Source of the DNA: Kappaphycus alvarezii
Lineage: Eukaryota > Rhodophyta > Florideophyceae > Gigartinales > Solieriaceae
Assembly (NCBI GenBank): GCA_002205965.3
Contig: NADL03000065.1
Span: 124,001 to 188,000 of the forward strand
DNA length: 64,000 nt
Reading direction: 5' to 3'
Under the pieces are notes generated by a model. The model was not told where the DNA came from and did not search any database. It saw only the letters and a program-made list of their open reading frames with translations. The position numbers and the translations under genes are program-made. Below, in pieces: positions 1 to 51,830 of this stretch; within the stretch, counting starts at the first letter, position 1; every line of letters starts with the position of its first letter.

Positions 1-555
1 AAGAGGTCCACAGCTGGTTTGAATGTTCCAGGGCATACCCGACGAACGCTCAAGGATCAAGTTGCTACAGCTACTAGAAGTAGTGAAAACTGAGAAGAAG
101 GAATTGATGCTCCTTGGATTGTGGACGCAGTGATGTTTGGAACCCAGGTGAGTGTAGACGGGAAACTTTTCGAGTACCGAAAGTACTATGCTTGCCATGG
201 CAGTGTCGCAGATGCCAGGTCGTATTCCAAATCGATGAGGAATCGCTTACTGCTCCACCTCATGGAGGAAGTTCAGTGGAATTTCCCACCAGAATAATTG
301 CTGTCAAGCCAGGAAGGAAGGCTCCAGACAGGTATGTGGTGAAGGCCGCGAGCAAAGATGCCTCAGAAGAGGACTTGGAACTTTGAAAGAAATGCTCGAG
401 TTCTTGTAGAGGTATCCCGGTACAGCAATAGTAACCAGGGGGCCGGCGATAAAGGGGCCGAATCCGTTTTGTCTCCGTATCGCACCTAGTACTGTAGTCG
501 CCTTTGCCAGGGGTCTAAATGCTTGACTGCGTGCCGGCCAGTATGGTCAACGCGG
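1..555. other. Unassigned end of copia element region
   Basis: This stretch lies downstream of the minus-strand copia integrase, where reverse transcriptase would be expected in Ty1/copia order. I could not find a convincing RT motif on either strand. A plus-strand open stretch (about 114-386) and a minus-strand reading with few stops both exist, and neither matches a family I recognise. It may be decayed pol sequence or a different insertion. The element is cut by the window edge. Confidence 0.3.
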
Positions 556-1515
556 TTTTCTTGATGCTGGGAGGAAAGGAAGCAACAATGGTCATGTAAG
601 GCTTGATTTGAGCCAAATTGAAGGAAGTATAATACTGGGCTCAGAGTCACTCAATCGAATGAATGCGAGTTTCTTGCTCACATCCACGGAATCCACAACG
701 TATGGCCCAGTCCATTCTCCGACACGGCTTCTACCCTCTCTTTCTCGCCATACCAAGACCTTGTCACCGGCCCGATAGGTGCGATCACTTGCAGGGTATC
801 TTGTATTTAAGGGCTCTATTTATTGGCACGGATGCCATTTTAGAGGCCATTTCTCTACGAGAAAGCTCGGCGATACTTGATCTTTGCTGAAAGTAAGGGT
901 GTTGAGATTGGGCTCGGATCGGAATCTTTGGATATTCGCCGAAAACCAGGACAGAAGGTACAAGTCCGTCTGGGCCAAGTGTATCGTTCATTACTTTGGC
1001 AGCACAGGCCATGCCAGGTATTTGTCGATATTCGGATGCTCTTTGATTAGCTTCCTCACGCAGCGCTCAGCTGGACCGAACCTTATGTTTCCTTGTCCGT
1101 GACACTTCGACTGGAGTCAGCCGCCATACGGATGAATCGCTCCCCGAATTTGGTACTTGATCGGTTTGCTTTAGACCGGTGTAGATGAGGATCCAGCACG
1201 TAGTAATGGTTGTCCAAATGGTCTTCGTACTCACATCAGGGAGGAAGCGAGCTGCGCTGAACGCGTAGCCTCGTCGACGATATGGAGTTCGGATCAGATC
1301 CGACGTACGTAATATCTATGAGAATTTTTCGTTAAAGCGACAGTGCTAAGCCGTGTGGGCGCGGATTGGATTCGTTGACAGGGATTGAACCTTATATCTG
1401 CAACGTACGCAATTTTCCGGTGTGTATCTTCATTTGGGCGCTTTAGGAGTTTCTGCGTAGACAGATGGAAGAAGTGCCTGTGCATCCGGACCAGTTCACG
1501 TCGTGCGGAGAACAT
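556..1515 (-). pseudogene. Ty1/copia integrase (gag-pre-integrase, core end, C-terminal domain), broken
   Basis: Integrase joins retrotransposon cDNA into chromosomal DNA. Three colinear minus-strand pieces support the call. At 1294-1515 a gag-pre-integrase zinc-binding region reads HRHFFHLSTQKLLK, followed by a C-rich turn (NPCQRIQSAP). At 785-1012 the typical end of the core reads NDTLGPDGLVPSVLVFGEYP, then QQRSSIAELSRREMASK. At about 600-790 the C-terminal domain has GDKVLVWRE and GEWTGPYVV. The pieces are in different frames, so the gene is broken by indels, and the central DDE residues are not all visible. The order gag, protease, integrase along the minus strand fits Ty1/copia. The match is strong for the family, while activity is very unlikely. 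Confidence 0.75.
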
Positions 1516-1564
1516 GTCATAAATTTTTTCTTAGGGGCGTAGAGGTGGTTGCTATGGGATCGTG

Positions 1565-1981
1565 TCATCGGTACATGCCATTCGTCGAAGTACATGACTT
1601 CAGAGTGATCGACGGCACTGGTACCTTCTTGACCAGCCTGTTGGAAATTTTACAAGGAGTCAAAGATTCCCTGTCTAATGTATCCATTCCCAGTAATGCC
1701 GGTACATCTGCTTGAACGATGTCGAGCTTGACGTAAACTGTCTTGATACCAGGTGGTGTATCGAGCGGCAGGACGGTCTGGCCGACAGATGGATACACTG
1801 TGTCAGCAAATCGAAATCTGTGACTGGCGGTTGGATGAGAGCGACTTTGGAAACGCAGACTAGAGAATATTTTGCCCATCTCCTTTCCTCCGATGATGGA
1901 CGTTGGAGCTCCGATGTCACACAGGATGCCAATGGGTCTATCCTTGGTTTTTTTAGTAACTGGGGGATATATTTCTGTCAT
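1565..1981 (-). pseudogene. Retropepsin-like protease of copia element
   Basis: Aspartic protease that would process the copia polyprotein. The minus-strand reading has the retropepsin N-terminal loop as CDIGAPTSIIGG (usually DTGAPxSxIG) and, about 75 residues later, the flap/C-terminal element DVPALLGMDTLDRE. The catalytic Asp is present, but the following Thr has become Ile, which should weaken or abolish the active site. Upstream along the minus strand lies gag and downstream lies integrase, giving the expected gag-PR-IN order. The frame is open for 138 codons, so this is the best preserved piece of the element. Confidence 0.7.
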
Positions 1982-1984
1982 ATC

Positions 1985-2925
1985 GATTTCCTCGCAGTCT
2001 TAAACACTGGAAATCAAGTGTGTCGTGCCAGGTGGGCGACGCAAACGCGGTGGTTCACATACAGCCACGGAATCAAAAATCCTGTACGGCAGGATGTGTA
2101 GGGTATTCAAGGGCGGAGGAGAGCCTCTAAACATAAGTTTCCTGCTCTAGATCATCAAAAGCGTTCGAAAAAGCAGCATGCCCATCAAAACCCGCATCGC
2201 TATGGTCGTTGGTCGTAGAAACAACGGAAGGAGAAGAAATAGTGGAGCGAGAATCGAGCTCTTCGACCATATTGGAAGTGTCTGGATCTTCTCCCTTGCT
2301 CCGGTAGTCTTGCTCAAGGGCTGAGTCTTCTTCCCCGTCAATAAAATCGGTCAAGATATGGATGGGTTTCTCCTCGCTCGCTATACGTGAGCGAGAATTC
2401 TTGAAAACATTTAGTCTCGAATAACGGTGACCAGGCTGTCAGGTTTCCTTGAATTTTATGCAAATTCGTTTGGCATGAGGTTCCTGAAATTCCTCGTAAC
2501 TGTGAAAGTGACCTGTTATTTTCGAGGTTGCGCTCGGGTGTCTCGGGCGATCTCGACGTCCAAGTGACGTGGTTTGCGGCCGTAACGCATTTAGGCTGTG
2601 ACCTCGGGGCCTTCAGTGTCCAAGGCCGAGCTCCTCCCATTCACCAAATTGATCTGCCGAAGCTGCTGAATGGATTCATGAAGGGAAGTGATGAACTTTG
2701 TGAAGGTGTATCCATGAGAAGTGGTGCTTTGCTTGGGCATCTGGGACCACTCAGTGAAGTCAGTAATGGCCTTAGTATGGTAGTCAATCTTGTGTGCATC
2801 CGAACGGAATTCTCTTGGGCACTACCGGACTAGGACGTTGATGTGCTCAATCAGCTCCTTCAGACCAGTGAAAAAATCAGTAATATCGTTCTCAGCCATA
2901 GAATTTCGAAGACGAAGGGTCTCTT
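1985..2925 (-). pseudogene. Decayed link between gag and protease of copia element
   Basis: The region should hold the end of gag and the nucleocapsid. Minus-strand open stretches at 2127-2354 and 2338-2640 are acidic or Ser/Arg-rich and lie colinear with gag and protease. A full CX2CX4HX4C zinc knuckle could not be read. I assign it to the element by position only. Confidence 0.35.
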
Positions 2926-4076
2926 ATGTCCCTTTCACTTGCATTCGGCGAGCCTCGCTACATTCTTCTGTATAAACGAGCCATGTCATAATAAGAACTG
3001 ATGTCACGATCAAAGCAGTGATCAAGGAAAATCCGCGGGCCGGGCCGAGGAAGACGTGTACGAAAAAGTCCGCCTTCTGCGTTCGAGAGAGCATGTACTG
3101 CTTGGCGCCTATGTTGTACATCTGAAGCGTTTCTTCTATATCATCAGAGAGCTCGCCAGAGAAGCGGGTACCCTTGAACATAGCTTGGACGTAGTTCGCC
3201 TTACGCGGGTCCTCGTTACTGTTCTGTTGGAAGTAATTCGCGCCACCATTGTATCCATCAATGTAAAGGCAATCAACTTTCCGATCAACTTTCCGGTCTT
3301 GATCAATGTAGAAGCGATGCTTATCGACCTTCCTGGTACTCGGATCAGCATTTTCGTCTTGTCTGGGTATGCGCTCATAACCCAAGGTTAAGGACGCTAC
3401 ATGGGGTTCTCTTGCAGCGCGAGCATTATTTCTAGGTCTTGTAGTTGCAGTAACCACCTTCTCGAATTCTTCTGTTTCCATATTTCTTTTTAGCCAGAGC
3501 GGAACTTGACTCCGAGATATGGGTTCTGAGCCGTTTCCTCCTGTTCTTCTCAAGATTTTTCTGGTTCTCATCATCCAACATTGGAAAGAGTGAAAACGAA
3601 GAAGTGCCATGAAGTGCACGGGTCTTGTTAAAATTAGAAACAAAAATCTTGCACAAATCGCTGTTAGCTCCAACAAAGTAATACATCCAAACATGAGAAC
3701 AAAGGCGCTTGTCTTTCATTCCATCTGCAGAAATTTTTGCTGAGCGAAGGTAGTGTTCGGGAACCGTCGCGAAGGAAAAGAGTTGTCCAAGCTGGAACAA
3801 AGCACGAATCGGAAATATTGGCATCTTTAAATTATCCGCTCAAAACAGTTCGTAGTGAGGAGGCAAGAGGTCCTCCAAGAAGTCTGAAACGGTATCGAGA
3901 TTCGTAATTTTACAAGATACGTCCGTTTCTGATTCCAAAGGTGCGAAGATCTCTGAGGTAGTTTTCGCAGCCTGCAACAAATGCAGAGGTAAGCTTTCCT
4001 TGTACGAAGAAGAGTTGATCATCTTCATCAAGCGATCATAATTGGCCTTGAATTGTGTACGCGTGACTGCAGGCAT
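2926..4076 (-). pseudogene. Ty1/copia gag, broken into three frames
   Basis: Structural capsid protein of the copia element. The likely start is the ATG at 4076 (MPAVTRTQFKANYDRL). Reading continues in three frames: 3840-4076, about 3432-3824 (charged segment with LDDENQKNLEKN), and 2924 to about 3500. The last piece contains a typical capsid stretch, MFKGTRFSGELSDDIEETLQ, followed by YNIGAKQYMLSRTQKADFF and GPARGF. This resembles the gag fold in which a target-binding helix set precedes a 'ff..l.g.Ar' motif. The breaks are single-base frame changes. It precedes protease and integrase on the same strand, so the assignment is mainly by context plus this motif. Confidence 0.6.
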
Positions 4077-5100
4077 AATAATTTGAGAAAGAGATCTTCG
4101 ACGAAACGATTGAACGTCGTTCTTGTTGAAGTACGCGAAGAAGGAACACGAATCCGGATTGTCGCGTATTCGCTCTTGCGCACACGTGAGACTCACACTT
4201 TACAATCAGAACCTCAGATAGTTTCGCGAAAAGGTTTGAGAGTAGAAAAGGGAGCGCGTGCGGGAAAGGCAGTGTAGAAGGTAGATATAGATGGGGCCGA
4301 GCTGAACGAACGGCGGAGAGTTCCAGCTACCTTACTCGTAGACCTAGAACAGTTAACCCTCTTTTCCTGCAAGCCAGGGGCGCTGGTAGCCTCACCCGGC
4401 GGCGGGTATTTAATCTGTACTTTGTAACGACTGTCGCAGCCCCGACGGCGGCGACGGTTTGGTCTAGTATACATTGTAAGTAGGTAGTGTAACCTACTAC
4501 TTTAATGACAGTTTCCGATTACTAAAAGGACTCGGATCCCTGCAGGGACGCCCTGAAGTTCGCTTACAATATCCAAGTCTACCGTACAGCTAACATGGAC
4601 CATTTGAGCTAGCTCTGCCACTTGCACCTAATTCCCTAGCGATATAAGCACAGCCCACTCTTGAAGAATAATCATCGACGGTAAAATAAAAACAACGGTA
4701 GAGGTATTGGTTAAAAGGCTTTATGTATACCCTGGACGATTACATTGAGAAGGAGTAAGCGAGGTACAAAAACAACTTCGACGCGCGATTACGAAAACCG
4801 GCATATGAAATCCCGGTCGGATCTTTTTTATTCTTTAGGAGGGAGCCCAGGTCGAGCAAAGAACGTCGACGCAAGTTTTCTGCCGTGGCCACTGGTCCAG
4901 ATTGAGTCAAAACAGTTCAAGCTGACACTGTTGTGATCGAAATTGTAGACACGCAAGAGAGGGTATCTCGCAATCTAGTTGGACCTGCACGAACTTCCTG
5001 GAGTCACCTTCAAAAGAAGGCCCCTCATGAGAAATTGAAGCTCATACTTTTAAAGTACAAAAATTATAACACCCCGCAGCCATCATAATGCGAACACCTC
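4077..5100. other. Possible 5' leader/LTR of the copia element, otherwise empty
   Basis: On the minus strand, about 4410-4200 has an AT-rich TTAAATA promoter-like motif followed by a GC-rich leader running into gag. This suits a 5' LTR/leader, but no second LTR copy is in the window to prove it. From 4480 to 5100 I see no supported gene. Confidence 0.25.
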
Positions 5101-5139
5101 AAATGGTATACCTGAAGGTAGTTAGTTGTGCAAAGGACT

Positions 5140-5712
5140 GCTTGATCTTCCATTGATTGAAATGCGAAAAGAAGCAATAACCAATGCAGCACAAGACTCA
5201 CTCGAGACTCAGGATTACAACATGAAATTGACGCTGGCAAAGGATAAAATCCATTCCTCAGAGGATAAAAGCAGACAGCAGGCAACGCCCTCGCCGTAGG
5301 TTACTGTCAGCAATGTAGCAATCGAAGAGCACATCTGGAAAATAATCCGATCACCACCCAATGGGAGGAAAAATGGGTCCTCAAGAGAAAATTCCACCTA
5401 CAAAGAAAATGTGGTCGACCTAGATTAATTATCACGTCCAAATATCTCCCTGGACCCGGCACAAGGCGGGAAACCGCCAGTTGGAGAACAGAAGCCGGAA
5501 GTCCCGGATCGGGAATATGTTATTGGAAAGAATTATCAAAAGGTCGAGCTGAAGACGTGGAGCTGTTGTTTCGCGTCCACTACACTGGCTATCCAGTCTC
5601 TGAAGCAACTTGGGAAACTGGTTCCACGCTTTCGAGAAGCAAGTTGGTGCAATACTTCCGGATAAATAAACTTCCCTTACCAACAGAAGTGGGCACCGCT
5701 CAAGTTGGATGA
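5140..5712 (+). pseudogene. Ty3/gypsy integrase C-terminus with chromodomain
   Basis: Tail of a chromovirus pol. At about 5145-5230 the plus strand reads LPLIEMRKEAITNAAQDS and then YNMKLTLAKDK, the basic helix found at the end of Ty3/gypsy integrases. At 5551-5712 it reads ELLFRVHYTGYPVSEATWE followed by LVQYFR and a stop, a chromodomain with the conserved GYP, TWE and hydrophobic end. Just upstream, DREYVIG lies in another frame, so one indel breaks the chromodomain. Chromodomains of this class target integration to chromatin with histone marks (family knowledge). The rest of pol is absent upstream, so this is a truncated remnant. Confidence 0.6.
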
Positions 5713-8700
5713 AAATCCTCAAGATAGTTCAGGGTCTATTAATACTACTCCAATATTCAGAAGGGGATGGATCAAAAAAAGGAAATTTGAAAAGATAGAA
5801 TTTTAACGTAGAATTCATTTTCTTCACCAAAACGGACAGTAACACCGGTAGAACCGGCAAAAATGATCCCAGTTATAATTTGAAAAGGACAACGATAGTG
5901 AGATGAGAACTCTCCAAGACTTTTAGGCGCACTGCAATTGTAAAATACGACTGTTAAAGACATAATGCAGCAGGGTCTGCCCCTTCGATCATTCATCCCA
6001 CGGTAAGAGTGTCATTGTTTGGAAGGTCGACTAGTTCGCCTATTGCTTGCCGCTCAACGTCCTGGAAAAATATGAATAAACTGCGACATATCCCCCTCAC
6101 TGACCGTGGGAAAGTAAGAACTGAAGCTCCGACTGCTTGGATGACAAAGTAATGAATTGACTCCCAAGTTTCCACCGAAAAGAACGGCTGATCCGAAGGT
6201 TGAACTTGGGAACCCCAGAGTGAAGACAGCACTGTTGCATTCTCTCCATTGATTATTTTCTGGCGGGCCTCGATAATAATACGTCGTAGCTGGCCTACCA
6301 ACTGTAGTGCGGTGCTAGACCAACTCGCCCCCTGGAGGTGACAGGAAGGAATGCAGGAATTTCTCCACTATATCTACGGCGGTCTCATGATACTCCACCG
6401 TTACGTACTTCTGACACGAGGGACGAACGGTAGCATGTGCGATGATTGTCTCTGGCTCCAACGCTTGGATTTCCTTTTCAGGGTCGCGGTGCACCGTATG
6501 CGCGGAGTCGGGTTCCACAACCTGATGGCCCGAATTAGGGACGAACTGGAGGAAGAGCTTACTACTTCTTGGCCAGGTCGAATAGTGGAACTGCGTGTCC
6601 TTTTCGATGAAGCATTTAATCACGCTTCCACTTTCGATTAAAAACGATCGGATTCCTTAACCCGCGTGTTCTCCCGCTTCAAACGCTTTGAGGGCGGCGA
6701 ATACTCCCCAGAACAGAGGATGGTGGCAGCAAACACTTGCGATTACCCCGCGAGAGGATTATTAGAAGGAGCCTGTGAAGTTTCCCTAGCGGACAAGTCT
6801 CTCCCCGTCTTCCTGCGAATTCCGGGATTCTGGGCTCTTTTCCTGCTGTAGAAGTGCTTAAGAAGAACCTCACACTCTCTAAGTTCTCCCTTGTCCTCAC
6901 TGTTGGCCCATCTTATGAGCCAACAGCTATCGAAAGAAGTCCGCTTCTCGCATATATCCTCTTTCTAATCAGGGCCCCGAGTTCTTTTTGCATCCGAACG
7001 TGTAGATGCCGCGCCCAACGGGCGGTCCTGCCGATTTGCCCTGCAAGGGACCTTGACTCACTGATTACTTCGTTATACCACGCTTCGTACCATATGAGGT
7101 CTCCCGCCTCCTCGACCCGTGTTCTTCAATAAGTTTATCGCTGATCGTTGCCACGATGACTGTTTCTTCGCGGTACTCGCGTACGGTCTGCTTGGTCCAC
7201 CACCCGCTTTATTAACACCCAATCACCATATCCTTCTTCACCTAGGACAAGTCGCAGTACGTCCGGGCCAAGTTGATAGCGAGCACCACGGACTCGAAGA
7301 GGATCAACCATAACCGAGAGGTATCTTATACCTCTCAGATGACGAAGCATACCACCGATATAACCCAAGCGATGAAGTGCGAAATCCACTAAGCAGAGGA
7401 GCTATTCGCAAAAATACGACCCAGTAGGCAAACACTGGAGGCGTCTCCGCCTACCCCACCACGGAACTTCCCAATCTTCCCACCACCAGGTTGGTACAGC
7501 GATGTACTGAGAAAGCAGCGCAGAAAATCTCCAGCATTCTACCTCAGATCGGTGCCACTGGATGAAGCAGCCGAGCTAGGAGCGGCAACGCCGATTTTAC
7601 AACACAGTAATGGAACAGAAGGATAGATATGCTTTCCTCACACTGCGGTAACCACGAAACAAAACTTATTGGTCCGTAGGGTCACCTATGGATGTAAATC
7701 TGTCGTAACCCCATTTGAGTCCAGGTGTGAACAATCTTCCCAATCCTAAGCAAAATCTGCAAATAATGATTTCCCCCAGCGAAATCGTAAACTACAAATC
7801 AGCGGGTGAGAATCGGCGCCAGGCAAGAAGGGGCAGTTGACCAACCGCAACTTTTCGGATAGGCATGCAACTGGGTCGCTTTGAAACAACGCGGATTTAG
7901 AGGCTTCCGTCCTCCCACTTTCCATCGACTACAACGCTACCCATATCAGAGGGGTACATTGAAACCCGTGCCATCTCCTCGAATGACCTCAACGCCGTTG
8001 ATGGTATTACGCTGGTACTACCAGCGCAGACATCTCATACTACATATACCTCCGCATACCCTCTCCATCATTAACATGGCGAACATAAAGCTAGTGTGCC
8101 CTCGAAGAACGAGAATTTTCCTCTGAAATAAGACCGAGCTTACTCTCCTCTTGAATGGAGCGCCGAAAAGGTAGGGAAAATAGCGTCACTTATTGGAATG
8201 AGGGAACTGGAATATTTCAATAGATATGACGAAGCATCAAAGAGTGTTCCATTTATCCTTCAGGATCAATGATGATCCGCAAAGTCTTTTGGTGGGAAAT
8301 TGGTTAATTAATTGGTGCTCCAAATAACGATGATTGTTGTTCTGCATGCGATATTTTTGATGCGTGAAATCCCCTACGCGTGCCTCATCATGCTGCAGCG
8401 GTGACCTGTTGTGCTGTGCTTGTTATGGTTGTTGGATACGCATTTACTATGTCAGAAACTGCCGATATAAGTACAGTAATGACCCTTTATTGGATCACAC
8501 GGTACTAATTGTGCTGAGTCACCTGTATGTGTGAATTCTGTCCAAGATACTAAGTTGTCACCAACTTATCGCGCCAGACGAAGCATAATGAGAGAGTCTT
8601 GTGTGGTGTCAAGACTACTGAGTCAGGAGTCATACGCACGAGGACCACCAGCTTGGCGGTGGTCGTAATCCATCCTCATATATGTTTTTAGGGTTCGTTG
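5713..8700. other. Unassigned, probably degraded repeat DNA
   Basis: Two consecutive minus-strand open stretches (6315-6623, and 5993-6301 ending near DLPNNDTLTVG) have coherent composition and may be one broken protein. A third is at 7135-7389. None matches a family I recognise. Nothing else in this 3 kb supports a gene or RNA. The surroundings suggest old retroelement sequence. Confidence 0.3.
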
Positions 8701-20112: not shown

Positions 20113-20786
20113 TCAAGGTCACAAAAGATCAGATCTGGATGCGATATTTCTCCCAGGTGTTTCAAGTGCCCAGAATCCAATGACTATCCCTGAGAACCGG
20201 AAACTTTCTCTTGCTCCCCTTTTTTGATCCTGTTTAGGATCAAACGGGTTATTTTTATAGGCATTCATTACCAACGAAAACTTTGATATTATTCTAAACC
20301 TCAACAGCATGGTTCAGATACGAAAGCGCCAATATATCCTCTTGCGCGACCATTAACGCATGCTGGGCTGTCAATACTAATCTCACTCAACTCCCTCGCC
20401 TTTTAACCAGCGTCAAATCTAAAAATGAAATGAGGTCATATCAGAAGAGGTAGGGGAAAAGAAGGGCTTCGTTTATTGTGACAGATGTTTTTGCTATAAC
20501 CCAATCACATTTCATATCTGAGTTTTACATTGGATGCATTTTAGTGAGAAACATTCAGAAGAGTAAAGTGGAATGATATAACAAAAATAACATATGAGAT
20601 ATTTGACGCGACCAATGTCCTGAACTGTACATTGCAGTCTAGTATAAGGCTAGAATATCTACCCTGCTACTCAGACATGCAAGAAAAATTACGGCATAAT
20701 AGAATCCACAGCCGGGTAGTTGCATAGTTCAAAACTACAATTTTTGCTATTCCTGCAAAGAAAAGACTAGATCAAGAGGGTTACAC
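20113..20786. other. No supported gene
   Basis: AT-rich sequence between the DDE fragment and the left end of the 4.1-kb transposon. Short open stretches only. Confidence 0.4.
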
Positions 20787-20828
20787 ATATCCCTAATGCC
20801 ATGAAGGGTAACTATATTTATCTTAAGG
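20787..20828 (+). repeat. Left terminal inverted repeat
   Basis: Begins CCCTAATGCC at 20791 after the flanking ATAT and pairs with 24895-24933 in inverted orientation. Shared core blocks are CCCTAATGCCA, AAGGGTAACTATA and TAAGG. Confidence 0.75.
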
Positions 20829-20857
20829 ATCTTTGGCAGAACTTCCGTTACAATCTT

Positions 20858-20877
20858 AGGATAAGTATACTTATCCT
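20858..20877. repeat. Subterminal 20-bp perfect palindrome
   Basis: AGGATAAGTATACTTATCCT is identical to its reverse complement. A partial copy (AGGATAAGCATAG) lies about 240 bases inside the right TIR. Such subterminal sites are often transposase-binding sites; here that is inference. Confidence 0.7.
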
Positions 20878-20931
20878 TACAGTTAAAATACGGCCTACTT
20901 TAGAGTTCAATTGTAATGAAATTAAACTTTA

Positions 20932-23900
20932 ATGGGCTCAATAAACATCCGATCTATGATCTGGTTAACAAGCGAAAGCGATTGGGCTTTCAAGCGTCAA
21001 AATCCGACCATTTTGAGAGGAATGACGACTTTCTTCCCGACCAAGCCTCAGCACCGTGTTGAGGCGGATCGAGAGGCACTCAACACGGATGCGGAGCAGC
21101 CTTTTGTGATGCACAGCCCCTCCAGAACCCATGGTGGCGGCTCTTCCGCCGCTGCATTGACAAACCAACCACAAGGCGAGTCTCCATCAGAGATATTGTC
21201 GCATCGGGGGGGGGTAGGCCGTCTGGTAGAGGAAGGGGTCTCGGTCGCGGATCATCATTATCTTCCGGAGCCGCGCGTGTTAGAGGCAGAGGTTCAAGAA
21301 CTACTCTGAGGGGTAGAGAGACAAGGAGAGTAATTTCAAGAAGGGTACTGACCGGATCAGGATTAGACGTTTTGCAGCGAAGATTACTCACAAGTTCTGA
21401 TGGAGAAACCTCTGACTCGCTTCTCCAGAACAGAGCACGAATTCTATGTCAAACGTCGGTATCTAAGATGAAATTGGAGTGTACTGTGAGGGGGATTATT
21501 CCATCGAGGTGTGGATATGTTTTGCTGATGATGAAGTGTTGATCAAACAACTGACAGAGTGGCTCAATGAGCTTCTTGGATTACAAAACCGTGGAGAAGA
21601 AATAACTATTCCCGATAAGTACCGATACGTAGCAGTTTTACTTCTATATCACACCACTGGACTCAGTTTCGACAAGGCAATACAATAATGCGTCAAAGCG
21701 GCTATATCCCTCCGTCTTCGGACAAGGAGAAGTTTATCTCAGATAAAATTTTGGCTTATTCACCAAAGGAAGGGGTTCAGATGGTATGGGAAATTGGAAT
21801 AATCGACGAGATCAGACAAGGCAGCTGACAGAATTTGAATCATTGGCGTTTCGTGAGACAAGAAAGGTGTTTTTTACTGCTCTGCAATTGCTGGCTACCT
21901 TAGACGATAATCTTTATGGTACAAGGGCATCAGATAATCAGGTTAAGATGTTGAGTTCAAGAAAAGCGGATAGAGAAGGGCATTTTGCGGACGCATTCGC
22001 GGATGCCCTTTTTAGAGTAGTCTTGCATTAAGATTTAGACGGCGTGGGGAATCACAGGTGGAATCTGTTCGTAATTGTTTATGACATTGATGGACGGGGG
22101 GGGGAAGAGGCACTAAATGGTTGCATTGTTACAGCCGACAGAGGGTACGGAAAGAGGAATTTATGAATTTGATGAATGAATTTGGAGTGAGTTCTGTCTT
22201 TGTCATGTCAGATCATTTACTTCGTGTGCACCCTTTCGTTGCAAGGTCGTTTCTGAATCCGAGTCGCGGGATGAGGAGGAAGAGTAATTTGGATACAGAT
22301 CAAGGATCAAGATCTGAGGGGACAGATGGAAGTACAGATAACCTTCAGTCAACAACAACTCAGCGGGGACTGAAAATGAAGATGTTGGGCAAACGAAACT
22401 GGTTATTGCAGATAGAAGGGCATCGTTTATCATTGATGATAGCCCTAAACTGGGACCAGAAGTTTTTATGGCAAAAATCCCCTAGTGGCTCTCTGAATAG
22501 GACAGGTCAACGAAGGGTGAGTGCCATAGCAGTAAGAGAACATGGATCAGAGAAGTTCAGTAAAGTTTTGAGGTTCATGTATACTGTACCTCAAAACGTA
22601 TCTGATTTACTGAACAAGTGGATTGCGGTTCCCAAGACTGGTTTTTGTTTCGACTGGACTCTCTTCGGTCGCAGCTTGGTTGAACATGTAGGTCAACAAG
22701 TCAAGAAGGGTAGTGCAGAGGAAAAACTTAAGCAACATTGTGATGTGCTGACCGTCATGCAGAGATGTGCAGAATGGTTTGTATTAAGGCAGTTCAGAGT
22801 CACAGGTACAACTGCTGCAATGATTTTAATGTCAAATGATGAGTTGGTCTCCATGTTTGGACTGGATCCGACACCTACCGATGACAAGACACTATCTGAA
22901 TGGTTTGATGATCTCCAGAGGAGTTGGTTCAGTAGTAAATTCGTCTGAGGTGATGATGAGGGGAACAGCAAACGAGGACGCTGTAATGAACGCTTTGAGA
23001 TCTATGAATTTTGTGACGGCGTTATTTGATGTGGGAATGCTATGTATAAGAACAACTGTTTCTAGCTTGTTCACCAGACGGCTTCTATCTTGGATGTTTC
23101 TAAATTTGGGGACGAGCAGAACAACATCACTGGACATGGAGAAGGGGAGGTAATGGCATCTGTTGAGATCAAGACTCGAGTTGCTGCCTCTACACTGGGA
23201 CAGGCGTTGTCCTTGTCCAGAGCTGAACCATTTTTTTGCGCCTTTGGAGACGACGCATTCAAAAAGTATGTCCCAAAGATCACATTGGTCAAATCGCGCA
23301 ACAACTTCTTGTATTGGGGTTGCAGTACTCTGTTCATGTTGTTGCTGGAGAATCTGGAATTCTATACACTGTCATAATCAAGTGTTCCTCAGAGATTATC
23401 TGTAAGGTTCGGGAGGTATTACTATCGTTTTGTCAACCAATTCTGAACTGGGCATATGACGGCAGTACAGATCTTCCAAGTTTTGTTGTAGGTGCAACTC
23501 AACAACTCGTGCGAGCTCAATACAAATTCCGGAAGATAATAGACGACAGAGTAAGGAGTGCTGGTCCGTTTGTCCCCCCAAACTTATTCAAGCACGCATC
23601 CCAAAGCTTTTACTCCAAAAAAAGCGGGAGTGGATGGGGCAACACAGCAGCGTGCCATTTTACGATCGTCAACCTCTAACCTGAAGTGGGAACAGAGAAT
23701 AGTATCCCTGATTATCAAAAAAATCGCTGTGGATGCATTCATTGCTTGGCGCATGCACCAGAGGGAGGATCTGCTTAGGAGACCAAAGCCTCATTTGATC
23801 ACTTGATAACTATCGCAGCCTTTTAAAAAAGGTTCAGGCTACAACAGATTCCATGTACGACATCTCGCATGAGTTGCTATTATTGGCAACAAATCGGTAT

Positions 23901-24476
23901 GTGACTGAGGTTGCTGAATGTCTAATCGATAATGTAGGAGGGAATGGAGAGGCTATAACTACTGAAGAAAGGGTCAGGTTAATAAGATTGGCTCATAAGA
24001 CAAAGCGAAACCGTTTAAAGTTTTTCAACTCTACAGACGGCTTAGTGTTACGATGTTCCATTCGCGTTCATTCTCCAAAGCAGTTCGTAAATATTCTGTA
24101 TTGTACGTTTTGGGGCACACACCACGGGAAAGATAGCCAAGGGAAACTTCTTTGGGTCACAAAACTTCATACGCTGTACTATTTGTGGGTTCCATCTATG
24201 TGTTCGAACTTATCTGGGTCTACGAAAGAGTTTTTGGGACGTTTGGCATTTCACAAAAGTCCTTAAGCCGAGAATAATCCCTTCGTTTCAATCGAGAGCA
24301 ACTTCTAGATCAATAACACCCAGTGGAACTGAAAAAAGAAGCTCTTTACCAGGAGTCGGCGATGCAGTCAGGCCAGAAGTCTTAGAGGCGACGTCAGGTT
24401 TTACACGAGAGGTGCGCGATAATTCTTCAAATTCCGCTGCCTCTAAAGGACTACTCGCTGCAATGCGGGAACTGTG
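20932..24476 (+). pseudogene. piggyBac-like DDE transposase fused to YqaJ-like nuclease, frame-broken
   Basis: Large transposase of the 20.8-24.9 kb element, read across at least eight frame changes. In order it has: start at 20932 or the ATG at 21022; an Arg/Gly-rich segment (about 21200-21300); a helical region with PDKYRYVAVLLLYHTTGLSF (21620-21680); LDDNLYGTRASDNQ and RKADREGHFADAFADALFR (21895-22020); TADRGYGKEEF (22133-22165); and VSSVFVMSDHLLRVHPFV. The Asp residues of LDD and TADRG probably are the first two DDE residues. A PD-(D/E)XK nuclease follows (see 22955). A piggyBac-like C-terminus at 23600-23800 reads GVDGATQQRAILRSSTSNLK then WEQRIV and AVDAFIAWRM, like the 'VDxxDQ ... kW.+R......+A+.NA' end of DDE_Tnp_1_7. 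It finishes with 23853-24266 and a Ser/Thr-rich tail. The third acidic residue is not assigned. Confidence 0.65.
22955..23460 (+). other. YqaJ/lambda-exonuclease-like PD-(D/E)XK nuclease domain inside the transposase
   Basis: A coherent nuclease core can be followed across two frame changes. It reads MMRGTANEDAVMNALRS (Glu of motif I), then CSPDG (the motif II Asp), then ASVEIKTRVA (the E-x-K motif), and HIGQIAQQLLVLGL followed by YSVHVVAGESGILYTV (the conserved Gln helix and following strand). This spacing, GTxNE / SPDG / EIKT / HxxQxxxQ, is that of YqaJ-type viral recombinase exonucleases (family knowledge). All catalytic residues named are present. It lies between the TADRG block and the piggyBac-like C-terminal block, so it is nested in or fused within the transposase. 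Confidence 0.65.
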
Positions 24477-24892
24477 ACTCCTCAGCGTATAACTCGACTC
24501 CGCGGAGTCTGCCTCAAGGTGAATCATCTGTGCTTGAGCCGCCCCCCGCAAGCGATGCAGGAGGTAATACAACGTTGATTTCAACGGCCTTTTAAGAGGT
24601 CACCTGGTGAGGTCTTCTATTCTCAATAACACCCGGAAAAAATCTGTAGAAAGTTTTAAAAAACAGTATTTGCCGAAATAGATTTTAATTTAGGATAAGC
24701 ATAGTTCAAATAAGGGAATAATGGCCTCTTTGAAGAGGCCCAGATGCCCAAACTTCAAGAAGATGGCTCTCCTTAGATATTGGTCCTTAAGCTCTCAAAC
24801 TTTGGTCAGTAACAGAGGTAGATGTGCACTTTCAGGACATATATTTATTTTGGAGAGTGCATGAAAAATGCCGAGCTTGTGGGGGTTCAAAC

Positions 24893-24937
24893 CTTATGTG
24901 AAGTATAGTTACCCTTAATACCTGGCATTAGGGATAT
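24893..24937 (-). repeat. Right terminal inverted repeat
   Basis: Ends GGCATTAGGG at 24933 followed by ATAT. Inverted copy of the left end with a GGTA insertion relative to it. Confidence 0.75.
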
Positions 24938-26305
24938 GAAAAATTAACATTTAGCTAAACAAGAAGTAAAATGTTTCGCATTTATCTTCAAATATTAGCA
25001 CTGAACCATTCAAATGGGCGACGATTATGAACTAATTCAGGCATCACATTGTAAGCTGGAACGATTCAGAGACCGAAAGAGCTAAACAATTTCTACTTCA
25101 AGAACAGTCACCCGCCAAGTCTCCGTCATTCCTTTTCTCTTTTCTTTCTTTGCGAAAGAGAACGATAAAGGGAAGAAGTTTGAGATCGGAAGGAGATGTA
25201 GGTGACGAAAAGGAGCAAAAATTGTCGTTTTAGTGGTCGAATGGCAGAGAAAGAGAAGAGAAAAATAAAAAGGTCATGGAGATATTTCTACTGCTAGGAT
25301 CGCATCGTGCCCTTTCTGTTCCTAGGTGCTTTATTAGATGTTTCCGCGTTGCGGGGTGCTCATAGTGATTTTTGGGAAATTTACGAGTCACAGGAGAAGA
25401 AAGACGTTTAGGCGACAGAGTTATTGTGTCGTGTTACTTTCCTCCGAAAGAAGAGCATACATCGTAGCATTAGCTCTAACGCCTATTCAACAAGCAATGG
25501 ATATTATTTGCTCAAGAGACATCATATTGCCACACATTATCGTTCGCCAAATAACATTTTGTGGAGAATAATGATATATCGCACGATACGGTTCACCGCC
25601 TGAGTAGACCAAAACCGAGCCGAAAACGCGATGACGAGCCTATTCGCCTCCAAGACCCCCGAAAAAACGCTCGAAATCCCCTCGGTGGCCATTTTAGTTC
25701 GATTTAGCCTGCCCCTTTTCTTTTTGGCCGGATTGTTTGGTACAGTACAGTACAATAATTTGTGATGTGGTCTTAACTTCTGCATCAGCTGCCCGTTGAA
25801 GATGGAGAACAAGTACAGTACTGTACAGTACAGGAATGCCTACCGTATCTTTGAGGGAAAATTTTGGGTAATTTATTATTTGGAAAGTACTGTAATGTCA
25901 TTTCTTGAAGTGAGGCCACATGTTCCATTAGGGATTGAAGGGTATCTTTGAAGCGTTTTCTGTTGAAAGTGCGGTAATTTCTTAAATGCCGTTAATTTAT
26001 GCTAGAATCCTGGAAAGCAACATGGGCTTAACCCACGTTGACACTTGTCTCGAGAACTAGCCTGTTCTTGTACAGTACTTGCATCATACTGTACATATCA
26101 ATGCTCCTCGTAATGTCCACTACCACGATCTCAGGGGATCAACGCCCTGGTCACTTTCCGGACTATGACATTAGCCTTCCTCCTCCACCACGCGCTTCCC
26201 TGTCGTCCCTTTCCCACGCTCAATAACGCACAAACCAGAGACCTTCATCCTCGTCACCTCTGCACGACCAGACTCTCCCACAATCACGGCCCCGCTCCTC
26301 GAACC
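24938..26305. other. Intergenic; contains GTAC-type repeat, upstream region of the Lin0512 gene
   Basis: A short frame at 25338-25571 has no recognisable domain. GTAC-rich palindromic repeats lie at 25738-25834 and near 26068-26096. The last 200 bases become C-rich and pyrimidine-rich, as in front of the other host genes here, and may hold the promoter and 5' leader. Confidence 0.4.
25738..25834. repeat. TACTGTACAGTA-type palindromic repeats
   Basis: Includes TACAGTACAGTACA (about 25740) and GTACAGTACTGTACAGTACAG (about 25813), built from the self-complementary unit TACTGTACAGTA. The same unit recurs at about 30236-30570, 33540-33600, 33818-33832, 47735-47875 and 48895-49030. Confidence 0.75.
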
Positions 26306-40792: not shown

Positions 40793-41720
40793 TCAGAGCA
40801 AAAGGCAACACCGTACCCCCCTTAAGACAAGAGCGTACCTGCTGACGGAATACGTCTTCAGTTGGGCTCCTAAAAGTTCCTCAGTGGAGATCGGTTTTAG
40901 CATTTCATGAGCAAGAGGCGCGTCAGACGCGATAATTGCATGATCAAACTCATCATAATCAAACGACACGAAGTCAATATCTTCTTCTTCTTTCGCCAGT
41001 TGGCAGTTCTTACACTGGCAATCAAATTCCTCCTCCGAGCTTGTCTCGACGCAAAAGCACGGAATCTCGTCATCGATTTCTAGAGGGGAACTTCCCAATG
41101 AACGGAGTCGCGATGACGCATCGGCCTGGGTGTTTAACTTTCTCTTCTTGTATACGACAGTAAAGTCAAATTCAGAAAGGGTTGTCGCCACCTCATAAGT
41201 CTGCCTGACGGGTCGGTTATCTCTATCAGCCATCGTAGCGAACTTTGATCGTTCTGAATCACGAACTTTTCGTACTGTAGATACGGACGTAAGGTCTTGA
41301 TGGCGTAGACTACGGCAGAGCATTCCTTTTCGATTGCCGAGTAGTTCTTCTCGCTCTTCGTCAACGTACGGGACCAATACCCAATTGAGCGTCGCTCACC
41401 GTCGATGGTTTGGTACAGTGCGCACCTCACCTGGTAATTCGAGGCATCGGTATCAAACGAATATGGACATCTCGGTTTAGGTAGTGACAACACTGGAGGT
41501 TCCGTCACTTGACGTATCAACTCGCGGAACGTGAACAGCTGATCGGAGTTGAGCTCGACAATTGTTGGCGGTTGTCCTTTCTTCAACAGTTCGTTAAGCT
41601 GTGCAGCAATCTGCGAATAATTCGGAACAAACCGGCGATAGACGTTACATAAACCTAGAAAAGAACGTAGTTCCGTTTGTGTTCGAGGAGGCTCCGCTTC
41701 TTTCAGTGCCGCGGTATTCA
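40793..41720 (-). pseudogene. Ty3/gypsy RNase H and following linker
   Basis: The frame 41134-41721 carries CPYSFDTDASNYQV (first RNase H Asp), SRTLTKSEKNYSAIEKE then CSAVVYAIKTLRPYL, and QNDQSSLRWL in place of TDHSSLRWL, with the final catalytic-loop Asp still present. Frame 40793-41377 continues with FDFTVVYKKRKLNTQADASS and an acidic linker (SSEEEFDCQCKNCQ). The family assignment is secure. Confidence 0.8.
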
Positions 41721-42310
41721 CGCGATCAACTTCCAGAGATTCTTCTCACAATGTACCCAAGGTATTTCACCGAGTACGTAAGAACGAGCACTTCCTTCAA
41801 GCGTAAGGATATCCCAGAATTCTGCAAGACACACAGGAATTCCTGAACATGGTTGAGGTGATCCTCGAAAGTCCTTGAAGAGATTACGACATAATCCAAA
41901 TAAAGGAGGCAAGTTTTTCATTTTTGCCGTGTTAGAAACAGATCGAGCGTGCGCTGGAATGTCGCAGGCGCATTTGTCAGTCCAAACGGCATAAAGAGAA
42001 ACTGTTTTGACCCACTGTGACACACAAAAGCGGTTTTGTCGCGATCTAGCTTTGCAACCGGCACTTGCCAATGTACACAATTCGCATCAAGTGTCGTGAA
42101 CCACGACGCTACGCGCAACGAGTCGATGTACTCATCCATTCCGGGAAGCAGATAAGTGTCTTTCCTGGTCCTCGCGTTGAGCTGACGGTAATCCACATCG
42201 AAAAGAATCTTTCCATCAGGCTTAGGGATCAGAAGAACTGGACTCGCTCACTCAGACTGAGTTGGCTCAATTATGCCCTCTTCGAGCATTTTCTCGACTT
42301 CAATCTTCTC
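41721..42310 (-). pseudogene. Ty3/gypsy reverse transcriptase, YLDY instead of YxDD
   Basis: The minus strand reads SEWASPVLLIPKPDGKILFD (about 42270-42205), VDYRQLNARTRKDTYLLPGM, WFTTLDANCVHWQVPVAKLD (motif A Asp kept) and FLFMPFGLTNAPATFQRTLD (motif B). The motif C box near 41895 reads CLLYLDYVVIS, so the second catalytic Asp is Tyr. Connection to the thumb and RNase H (RTQTELRSFLGLCNVYRRFV) is clear. Frame breaks add to the inactivation. Confidence 0.85.
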
Positions 42311-49621: not shown

Positions 49622-50730
49622 TTACTCGGTTTTTTCGTCTGCCTCCGGGATCACGAGGTCCTTTAACGGCTCGGGGGAGGGGTCCGCAGTCTCCCATGGC
49701 GCGGTGCGAGGAACCGGTGTACAGCGGTCGATAGAGGCGTTTACCAACACGCCATCCTTCTCGATCATAAAGTTTTCATCTTTGAATCGGTCCACGCGAA
49801 ACAGGCCTTGCTCAAGAGGGAGAAGCTTTTGCGCCACCTCTTCGGCGTAGTTGGTCGCTTCTTCCCGTTCTTCGGCGGTCAGAATACGGGAAGGGCAGTC
49901 GACAAAGACTTCATCTTCGGGTCAAATGAAGGAAAGGAACTGAACCTTCCGGTCATAATCGCGCTTGCACCGGCGTTGAGCAGCGATCATCTTGGGGGTT
50001 GCGGCATTTAGCCACTCCCGAAGTTTCTGGATTGCATCGCGCTTGAGCTTGGTTGGGGTGGATCCGACCGGGCGATCATCAGAGGATGTCGGTAAGTCGT
50101 GCACAATGATGTTCCGAGGATTTCTGGTTGGCCACAGGTCGAAAGATGTCGTTCCCGTTGTTCTGTGTAGTTGCATGTTATACCCGTACGTAAGCGGTTC
50201 GACGAACTCCTCCCACTTCGTCGGGGTGCACCGTGATGTAATTTCAGAGGGAGCACACGAGTGTACTTTTTAAGCTTTCCCCCTGTCCGTTCGTTTTCTG
50301 GTCACATGAGGCGGTAAAGTAATGTTTGATCCCCAAAATTCCGAAAACGGTATCCAAGAACTCGGCTACAAACCGCTTTTCGTTTTCGGTTAGGACATAA
50401 TTCGGCGCACCGTACGCGTAAATCCAGTGTTACAAGAACGCTCATCAAACGTCGGCGGCGGTAATTTCCCGCAGAAGTACGGCACGCTTGGGCTTCGAAT
50501 ACGTGCTTACAATGATCAGGATGAACCGATATCAGCGGGAAGTCGCCGGAAACGGACCGAGGATATCCAACACGACGAACTCGAGAGGCCCGCCAGCCGA
50601 AAAAATCTTCAAGCACTTCTGATGCTTGTATTGTGTTTCCTGGGAGCGGATACAACTGCGACACCGAGCGGCAGTTTTGAATGCGTTCAGGGCCATGTGG
50701 CCTACCCGATGCGTCGGACAAGTTCAGGAT
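49622..50730 (-). pseudogene. Ty3/gypsy integrase with GPY-type end, second Asp changed
   Basis: Minus-strand pieces are: PLEFVVLDILGPFPATSRYR (first catalytic Asp, about 50590); GAPNYVLTENEKRFVAEFLD (about 50420, where the usual TDNG is TENE, so the second Asp is Glu); TTGTTSFDLWPTRNPRNI and KLREWLNAATPKMIAAQRRC (49922-50176); and KLLPLEQGLFRVDRFKDENF then DRCTPVPRTAP (49622-49837), the GPF/Y end domain. Frame breaks occur between pieces. Confidence 0.75.
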
Positions 50731-51830
50731 CCAACGCAGCGGTTCTTATCCACGCGCAGGATAAAGGGGCCACCGTACAGGTATGGGCGGAGCTGTAGCA
50801 TAGCCCATACCACTGCGAGACACTCCAGTTCCGGAGCGATGTAACTCCGTTTTGCATCGGTTAAACTGCGTCTCCGATACCCGATAGGGAGTCTATCTCG
50901 TTCCGGTTGTTCTTGTAACAGACGACAAACGACCTGATAGTGGCAGGATTCAGTGTCCAAGGTATACCGGAAACCGGAACGCGGCAGGGCGAGGATCGGA
51001 GGGGAGACTAAGCGCTGCTTCAACTCCGAGAAAGCGGAATGTTCTTCGTCATCAAAGTTCTCCCACTCGGTCGGTTCGGTTGGTAGTGTTTTCCGAGTAA
51101 GAGGTGCCGACATTTGAGCGAAATTAGGGACGATGTGGCGGTAGACGTTGCACATACAGAGGAATGATTGGATTTTAGTTATATTAGTCGGAGGTCGCGG
51201 GTTTCGAATGGCGTCGCTGTTCTTGTTGTTCACCTCGAGCTGCCAGGGCTCGATCGCGTGAACGAGGTACACCACTTCGAAATTGAAGAAAAAACACTTA
51301 TCCAGGCGCAACGTGACTCTGGTATCGGTTAACAATTGCAGAACTTCCCGCATGTGTCGAAAATGGTCCTCCAGGCTGTTGGAGTAGATAAGCACGTCGT
51401 GGACTTAGACGAGCGCAAAGAGCCATTTTACTCGGGAAAGTATGATATCTGCTGCCCGTTGGAATGTCTCCGGGGCGTTTTTCAACCCAAAAGGCATCCG
51501 ACGAAATTAGTAAGTTCCATAGTGCGTAATAAACCTTATTTTATCCCGATCCTCCTCTGCAACTTCGACTTGCCAATACCCAGAGTTAAAATGTAACGTC
51601 CTGAAAACGGCCACTTGGCTAACTGAGTCTATGCACTTGTCCATCGGCGGAATCAGGTATGTATCGCGACGAGTGACTGCGTTAAGCCGGCGGTATTCCA
51701 TAGAGAAGCGCAGCTTTCTGTCTTCCTTCGGTATTAGGACGAAAAAGCTTTCTCGCTCCAGCTGCGCGGATTTGATGACTTCATCCGTGATCATTCGGAA
51801 GATTTCCTTCTGCTGAAATTACCGACTTCG
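50731..51830 (-). pseudogene. Ty3/gypsy RT and RNase H, YxDD replaced by stop-V-H-D
   Basis: The minus strand reads ERESFFVLIPKEDRKLRFSM then YRRLNAVTRRDTYLIPPMDK and FRTLHFNSGYWQVEVAEEDR (51507-51794). Motif A normally has Asp after TL; here it is His. Motif C near 51400 reads stop-V-H-D followed by VLIYSNSLEDHFRHM. The thumb (IRNPRPPTNITKIQSFLCMC) and RNase H (RYTLDTESCHYQV, where DTDAS is DTESC) follow to about 50740. Catalytic residues of both enzymes are damaged. Confidence 0.8.

Follow-up and report, generated by a model that had tools for sequence, protein, structure and literature searches.

Introduction

piggyBac transposons are widely used in genome engineering because their excision is seamless and their target is TTAA (PMC7351741). 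ISL2EU elements (PHIS superfamily) carry a YqaJ protein of unknown function as a second open reading frame (ORF), next to a transposase of the PIF/Harbinger group with DDE, helix-turn-helix and THAP domains, and target AT (PMC4482050). In Dada elements of Laccaria and Ectocarpus, which belong to another superfamily and target small-RNA genes, a DnaQ-like DEDDy 3'-5' exonuclease follows the second D and precedes the next motif; in its authors' view it processes cleaved 3' ends (PMC3706591). The bacterial Tn7 employs a DDE transposase together with a second nuclease, the type II restriction-endonuclease-like TnsA, separate or fused (PMC10761935), and in the P element and THAP9 the RNase H fold is interrupted, between beta5 and alpha4, by a GTP-binding domain (PMC8230255). 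Here we describe a 4.1-kb element in a 64,000-nucleotide stretch (the window) of the red alga Kappaphycus alvarezii (assembly GCA_002205965.3, contig NADL03000065.1, positions 124,001 to 188,000), which is probably a dead cut-and-paste copy of the piggyBac superfamily with a lambda-exonuclease-type nuclease inserted in its RNase H-like catalytic domain.

Sequence and structure models together show that transposase and nested nuclease form one chain, that residues of both active sites are conserved, and where the termini and the ATAT duplication lie. The family shares with piggyBac of Trichoplusia ni and with piggyBat (PF13843) the fold, the DDD RNase H-like core, the insertion-domain strands, the GGVD helix, palindromic subterminal repeats and a 4-bp palindromic target duplication, and perhaps the Cys-rich C-terminus. 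It differs in a lambda-exonuclease domain of ~270 residues between the second and third catalytic Asp (D2 and D3). It is not a canonical piggyBac, because its target is ATAT and not TTAA, and we file it by fold and triad as a divergent branch of the superfamily. The inserted domain has the fold, the E/D/ExK active site and the Trp/Arg 5'-phosphate pocket of lambda exonuclease (lambda Exo) and YqaJ (PF09588), but is nested in a transposase and has a longer SPDG-EIK stretch. ISL2EU is likewise a DNA transposon carrying a YqaJ exonuclease, there as a separate ORF and here in one chain of piggyBac fold, with an AT target against a duplicated 4-bp ATAT (one insertion with empty sites). The nested exonuclease of Dada is of the DEDDy kind, not of the lambda Exo fold, and the domain that the P element and THAP9 likewise carry inserted is not a nuclease.

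A nuclease nested in the transposase

20926..24275, plus strand: broken transposase-nuclease gene, in three frames, read through over 20 segments, ends approximate

The original prediction, made from the letters alone, was of one plus-strand gene combining a DDE transposase with a YqaJ-like exonuclease. The motifs it named are all present, and relatives do carry them in a single chain, but in the window copy they are distributed over three reading frames, the longest plus-strand stop-to-stop frame being 285 amino acids (aa). The order is D1, D2, nuclease, then D3 with the remaining piggyBac core, so the nuclease is nested and not appended. What had been called a piggyBac-like C-terminus is piggyBac-like, but it completes the catalytic domain begun ahead of the nuclease, as its second half, and contains the third Asp (in GGVDG); this places the nuclease inside the piggyBac transposase.

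A read-through, hand-joined from the open frames, served as query for the first protein search and gave 17 relatives (37-50% identity); an alignment search raised these to 29, and a query with the front DDE half of relative P0003 to 37. The first-Asp and ExK motifs stand in one chain in 31 of the 37 (including P0010, as EIET, and P0036, as KIKT), and 28 of these 31 also have the third-Asp motif. The exceptions are P0026-P0029, which end before or early in the nuclease, P0017, without the front, and P0035, without the ExK motif. Within the algal genome one copy (C4) has a single 867-aa open frame corresponding to P0003 positions 5-739, that is, the front DDE half and the nuclease. DDE_Tnp_1_7 and YqaJ were expected in one chain, and they are found so: DDE_Tnp_1_7 begins before YqaJ in P0020 and finishes after it in P0016. 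The window copy, having no long open frame, could by itself suggest that two adjacent genes, or unrelated pieces brought together by chance, have decayed here; the 31 single chains refute this, the 867-aa frame spans both parts, and the DDE_Tnp_1_7 limits in P0020 and P0016 likewise count against it, so that we consider such an origin extremely improbable.

Nuclease-free relatives were sought with the front DDE half of P0003; 23 of 26 hits carry the ExK motif, and the other three are P0010 (EIET), P0036 (KIKT) and P0035, which changes character inside the nuclease and has no such motif. Most relatives come from lgn, ena or jgi entries, and their contigs, frequently 3.7-4.6 kb long, are then close to the element in length. 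Species names go with five: four Gracilariopsis chorda proteins, annotated as YqaJ domain-containing, piggyBac-derived or uncharacterized, and a single Chondrus crispus protein; both species are Florideophyceae. Viral contigs and phage records yielded no relative at the sensitivity used.

In the Pfam scans PF13843 exceeded its cut-off (22.4 bits) in one of 19 tabulated members (P0020, 22.6) and appeared in 6/29 at E up to 1. PF09588 was clearly over its 22 bits in seven of the 19, with P0005 printed as equal to the cut-off, and appeared in 22/29 at E up to 1. The broken ORFs of the window copy gave only a weak and unrelated PIH1 match (E 0.26), the read-through gave no match, and a trial scan of window positions 1-3000 gave nothing; the families thus came only from the relatives' proteins. 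An extra C-terminal zinc finger resembling Znf_SCAND3 occurs in 4/29 members at E up to 1 (among them P0013, P0023, at 26.9 against a cut-off of 27, and P0024). The N-terminus is commonly RG-rich in this family (e.g. P0013, P0018), and such a region is present in the window copy near 21200-21330.

Catalytic residues of the transposase

21903..21905, plus strand: first catalytic Asp (D1), TLDD, D268 of piggyBac by order; 28/28 aligned relatives
22137..22139, plus strand: second catalytic Asp (D2), TADRGYG, D346 of piggyBac by order; 27/28 aligned relatives
23633..23635, plus strand: third catalytic Asp (D3), GVDG, D447 of piggyBac; 24/24 aligned relatives; profile alignment to 6x67 438-503
24040..24275, plus strand: decayed C-terminal Cys/His-rich domain, limits approximate; CALCG...C..C...LC...WH in relatives

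Residue counts here and below refer to the 29 aligned relatives, wherever they have a letter at the site, and leave aside the eight later ones (P0030-P0037). D1 and D2 were equated with piggyBac by order and fold, and D3 alone by sequence alignment. The DDD triad of the superfamily is thus present, and in the relatives' models the catalytic and DNA-binding domains have the piggyBac fold. Among 31 copies in the alga's own genome, many decayed, D1 is kept in 25/29, D2 in 23/30 and D3 in 29/31 of those with the codon present.

Tyr439 of piggyBac, which contacts the hairpin, is kept, as is the Gly-Gly turn before D3. Where piggyBac has Asn440, the residue that touches a base of TTAA, the family consensus has Ser, a substitution that fits the change of target, short of proof. 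The first two cysteines of the Cys-rich domain are kept (22/22 and 21/21). zf-Tnp_2 was seen in 3/29 members at E up to 1, under the cut-off where tabulated, and the C-terminal profile block scored -2.5 bits against the piggyBac Cys-rich domain.

The nuclease domain

22760..23460, plus strand: nested lambda-exonuclease/YqaJ domain, limits approximate; two relatives' models by fold, Pfam YqaJ in relatives
22766..22792, plus strand: CAEWFVLRQ, with Trp and Arg equivalent to Trp24/Arg28 of lambda Exo; 26/26 aligned relatives
22974..22976, plus strand: nuclease Glu, RGTANE, Glu85 of lambda Exo by order; 23/24 aligned relatives
23077..23079, plus strand: nuclease Asp, SPDG, Asp119 of lambda Exo; 24/24 aligned relatives; ACSPDG identical in lambda Exo
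23165..23173, plus strand: nuclease E-x-K, EIK, Glu129/Lys131 of lambda Exo; E in 25/25 and K in 24/25 aligned relatives

The EIKT region had been put forward as a PD-(D/E)XK core, and that is how it is modelled: as a lambda-exonuclease-type domain, the models of two relatives matching lambda Exo and LHK-Exo by fold. The model places the nuclease between D2 and D3, behind strands that look like a three-stranded insertion domain. The lambda Exo residues were verified on the lambda sequence, and the Trp-Arg spacing of four residues is that of lambda Exo. Glu129 of lambda Exo is an active-site residue. The roles of the other residues are described, Trp24 and Arg28 forming the 5'-phosphate pocket (PMC7496540). 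When the nuclease columns were compared by hhalign with just lambda Exo, the match was weak. Own-genome copies keep the equivalents of Trp24 in 27/30, Arg28 in 28/30, Glu85 and Asp119 in 28/31 each, and Glu129 and Lys131 in 30/31 each.

We predict with good confidence that the nuclease is catalytically active. The nested domain could instead be a DNA-binding spacer whose nuclease activity is unneeded, as the GTP-binding domain at the same insertion place of the P element might suggest, other roles being known there (PMC8230255). Near-neutral dN/dS among own-genome copies would agree with this, as would the residues lost in P0010 and P0025 (one counted nuclease residue each) and in the later relative P0036 (the ExK Glu). 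Against it, the equivalents of Glu85, Asp119, Glu129, Lys131, Trp24 and Arg28 are kept in 23/24 to 26/26 aligned relatives that are only 33-62% identical to P0003, and we judge a mere spacer improbable.

Ends and target-site duplication

20791..24933, plus strand: whole element, a decayed DNA transposon of a divergent piggyBac branch (inverted repeat, genome copies, differing flanks)
20787..20790, no strand: left target-site duplication, ATAT (copies' differing flanks, empty sites of the C616 copy)
24934..24937, no strand: right target-site duplication, ATAT (copies' differing flanks, empty sites of the C616 copy)
20791..20800, plus strand: left terminal inverted repeat, CCCTAATGCC (same end in other families)
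24924..24933, minus strand: right terminal inverted repeat (inverted-repeat search, window count, differing flanks)
20856..20879, no strand: palindrome of 24 bp with one mismatched pair, at the left end

Terminal inverted repeats had been proposed to bound a unit of about 4.1 kb, and they do: a perfect 16-nt inverted repeat (20786-20801 and 24923-24938) marks where genome copies stop and flanks begin to differ, the predicted limits being those of the element without its ATAT duplications. Inside it follows an imperfect 28-nt continuation (82% complementary). At up to three mismatches the 16-mer has only these two sites in the window, both mismatch-free; shuffles average 0.49 occurrences, and 10 of 100 have two or more. 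With its duplication the element end reads ATAT-CCCTAATG... and thus begins CCC, as piggyBac ends do.

The genome assembly searched comprises 336 Mb in 884 contigs. It has phycobilisome proteins above the Pfam cut-off at three places, whereas among 14 control genomes Synechococcus alone has any; together with the named relatives this agrees with a red algal host. With the element as query, 40 of 166 candidates were scored and gave 48 matches, one of them the copy in the window. Copies on C671, C616, C446, C668 and C497 (interrupted) are near full-length at 86-92% identity, those on C728, C641 and C467 are shorter derivatives, and 31 matches at 66-73% identity are other families. With P0003 as query, scoring 45 of 2218 candidates, there were at least 75 matched stretches. 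Recent copies exist: L035 and L049 share 98.1% identity across 4225 bases, and L020 and L024 96.7% across 4208.

Further copies with both termini were thus found, in the window's own family and beyond it. Ten stretches were fetched, nine of them own-family copies including that of the window, and their flanks diverge directly outside ATAT; among the own-family copies ATAT is intact at 7/9 left and 7/8 right ends. An inverted-repeat search unseeded by that sequence found ATATCCCTAATG ends in 4/30 loci of other families (the sisters L020 and L024, L028 and L032). A seeded search finds such ends in many more loci, but its pattern contains ATAT, so that its count of ATAT is biased; the unbiased evidence is that of the genome copies' ends, the differing flanks, the unseeded search and the empty sites. 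These last were found for the C616 copy, whose joined flanks match 40 other scored places of the genome across the junction: all 12 aligned empty sites have a single ATAT, against two around the insertion. The target-site duplication is ATAT, four bases that are self-complementary like TTAA, and 5' overhangs could therefore re-anneal.

A subterminal imperfect 18-bp palindrome is seen in the mean over 33 ends, to which 54 were reduced (a few are chance matches, e.g. L012-, L018-, L031, and the seeding pattern contains ATAT). Of all positions, mean pairing is greatest for a centre 32 nt in from the A that opens ATAT, with 3.55 of 9 pairs against a background of 2.34 (SD, standard deviation, 0.29), followed by centres 237 (3.33) and 26 (3.30). 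With this centre, 7 of 9 pairs are attained in only 4/33 ends; the best of the 16 centres 24-39 averages 5.9 pairs against 4.9 elsewhere, and centre 28 is the best for several right ends yet ranks below the top 12 by mean. In the sister copy L010 one palindrome is at a place like that of the window copy and another lies nearer the end. Centre 32 falls near the palindromic subterminal repeat of piggyBac (bp 17-35 in our comparison), which is described as bound by the Cys-rich domain at bp 17-33 (PMC7351741).

Several copies and neighbours deserve mention in their own right. L010, the C616 copy, is inserted in a high-copy repeat (L050-L061; 40 further places scored, at 82-86% identity), and its left flank resembles by eye a retroelement pol end. 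L013 (C497, about 1682-6607) is split by a large insert with long ORFs, one retroelement-like by eye. L015, L016 and L017 are window-family derivatives, internally deleted with one or both ends kept; L015 and L016 are ~1.6 kb. We did not read the internal deletions as evidence of gap repair, because they also arise in ordinary cut-and-paste elements. Only eight stop-to-stop frames in the window are at least 200 aa long, and the minus-strand ORF fragments at 41137-41745 and 50727-51404 (FLGLCNVYRRFVPN and like) we take to be retrotransposon-like.

A proposed mechanism

The original prediction had suggested that excision might be coupled to end resection or target processing. By homology, the DDD site likely acts as in piggyBac: it would nick at CCC, form a hairpin across the 4-nt ATAT, reopen it and join the 3' ends of the element to a new ATAT. 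The nuclease, we propose, would act after cleavage, near the DNA channel lined by the insertion domain. It may load on 5'-phosphorylated excision ends, mainly at the broken donor site, and resect the 5' strand, so that the gap would be repaired by homologous recombination instead of plain re-annealing of ATAT overhangs; we put this at slightly under an even chance.

Two other divisions of labour were weighed. As with Tn7, where the restriction-endonuclease-like TnsA cuts the 5' strands and the DDE enzyme TnsB the 3' strands, some pairs being naturally fused (PMC10761935), the nuclease might cut the non-transferred (5') strand at the transposon end and spare the DDD site its hairpin. But the domain retains an end-binding 5'-phosphate pocket of exonuclease type and matches lambda Exo and LHK-Exo in fold, the transposase retains the Tyr that contacts the hairpin and the Gly-Gly turn ahead of D3, and the duplication remains a 4-bp palindrome; we regard a TnsA-like cut as unlikely. 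Hardly more probable is that the nuclease does not resect the donor at length but trims short 5' flaps, either on the transposon ends or, once strand transfer has taken place, on the target. Opening of the hairpin leaves piggyBac ends with a 4-nt overhang, which is a flap in the strand transfer complex (PMC7351741), and the modelled nuclease follows the insertion-domain strands; yet piggyBac manages without a nuclease, and the lambda Exo trimer is described as processive (PMC7496540), which would favour longer resection if that assembly is kept.

The reading as a whole also has points against it. The nuclease is conserved less than the DDE parts, most tabulated members fall under the PF13843 cut-off, the empty-site result comes from a single insertion (the C616 copy), and dN/dS was uninformative: close own-genome copies have values near one for the DDE parts and the nuclease alike, and most other comparisons are saturated. 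More tentatively still, the element could be seen as holding two active sites in one interrupted fold, an ATAT-aimed piggyBac core with its own 5'-end resection enzyme, in which recombination-primed repair takes the place of seamless excision and keeps the donor copy.

Significance

A literature search for piggyBac and YqaJ named together, which covered titles and the start of abstracts and left Repbase and most subscription journals outside, returned nothing about such an element. As far as searched, a nested lambda exonuclease in a piggyBac transposase with an ATAT target is new, its parts being precedented by ISL2EU and Dada. If the nuclease does resect donor ends, the family would be a further case of exonuclease recruitment by eukaryotic transposons beside those two and, beside Dada, the second at the D2-D3 site. 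The family also links the recombination exonucleases of phages and giant viruses with eukaryotic transposition. For piggyBac biology it offers a natural branch with another tetranucleotide target and a nuclease beside the catalytic site, and may serve as a system for testing how an insertion domain affects the fate of excised ends, what sets the choice of target, and whether a transposon controls repair of its donor site.

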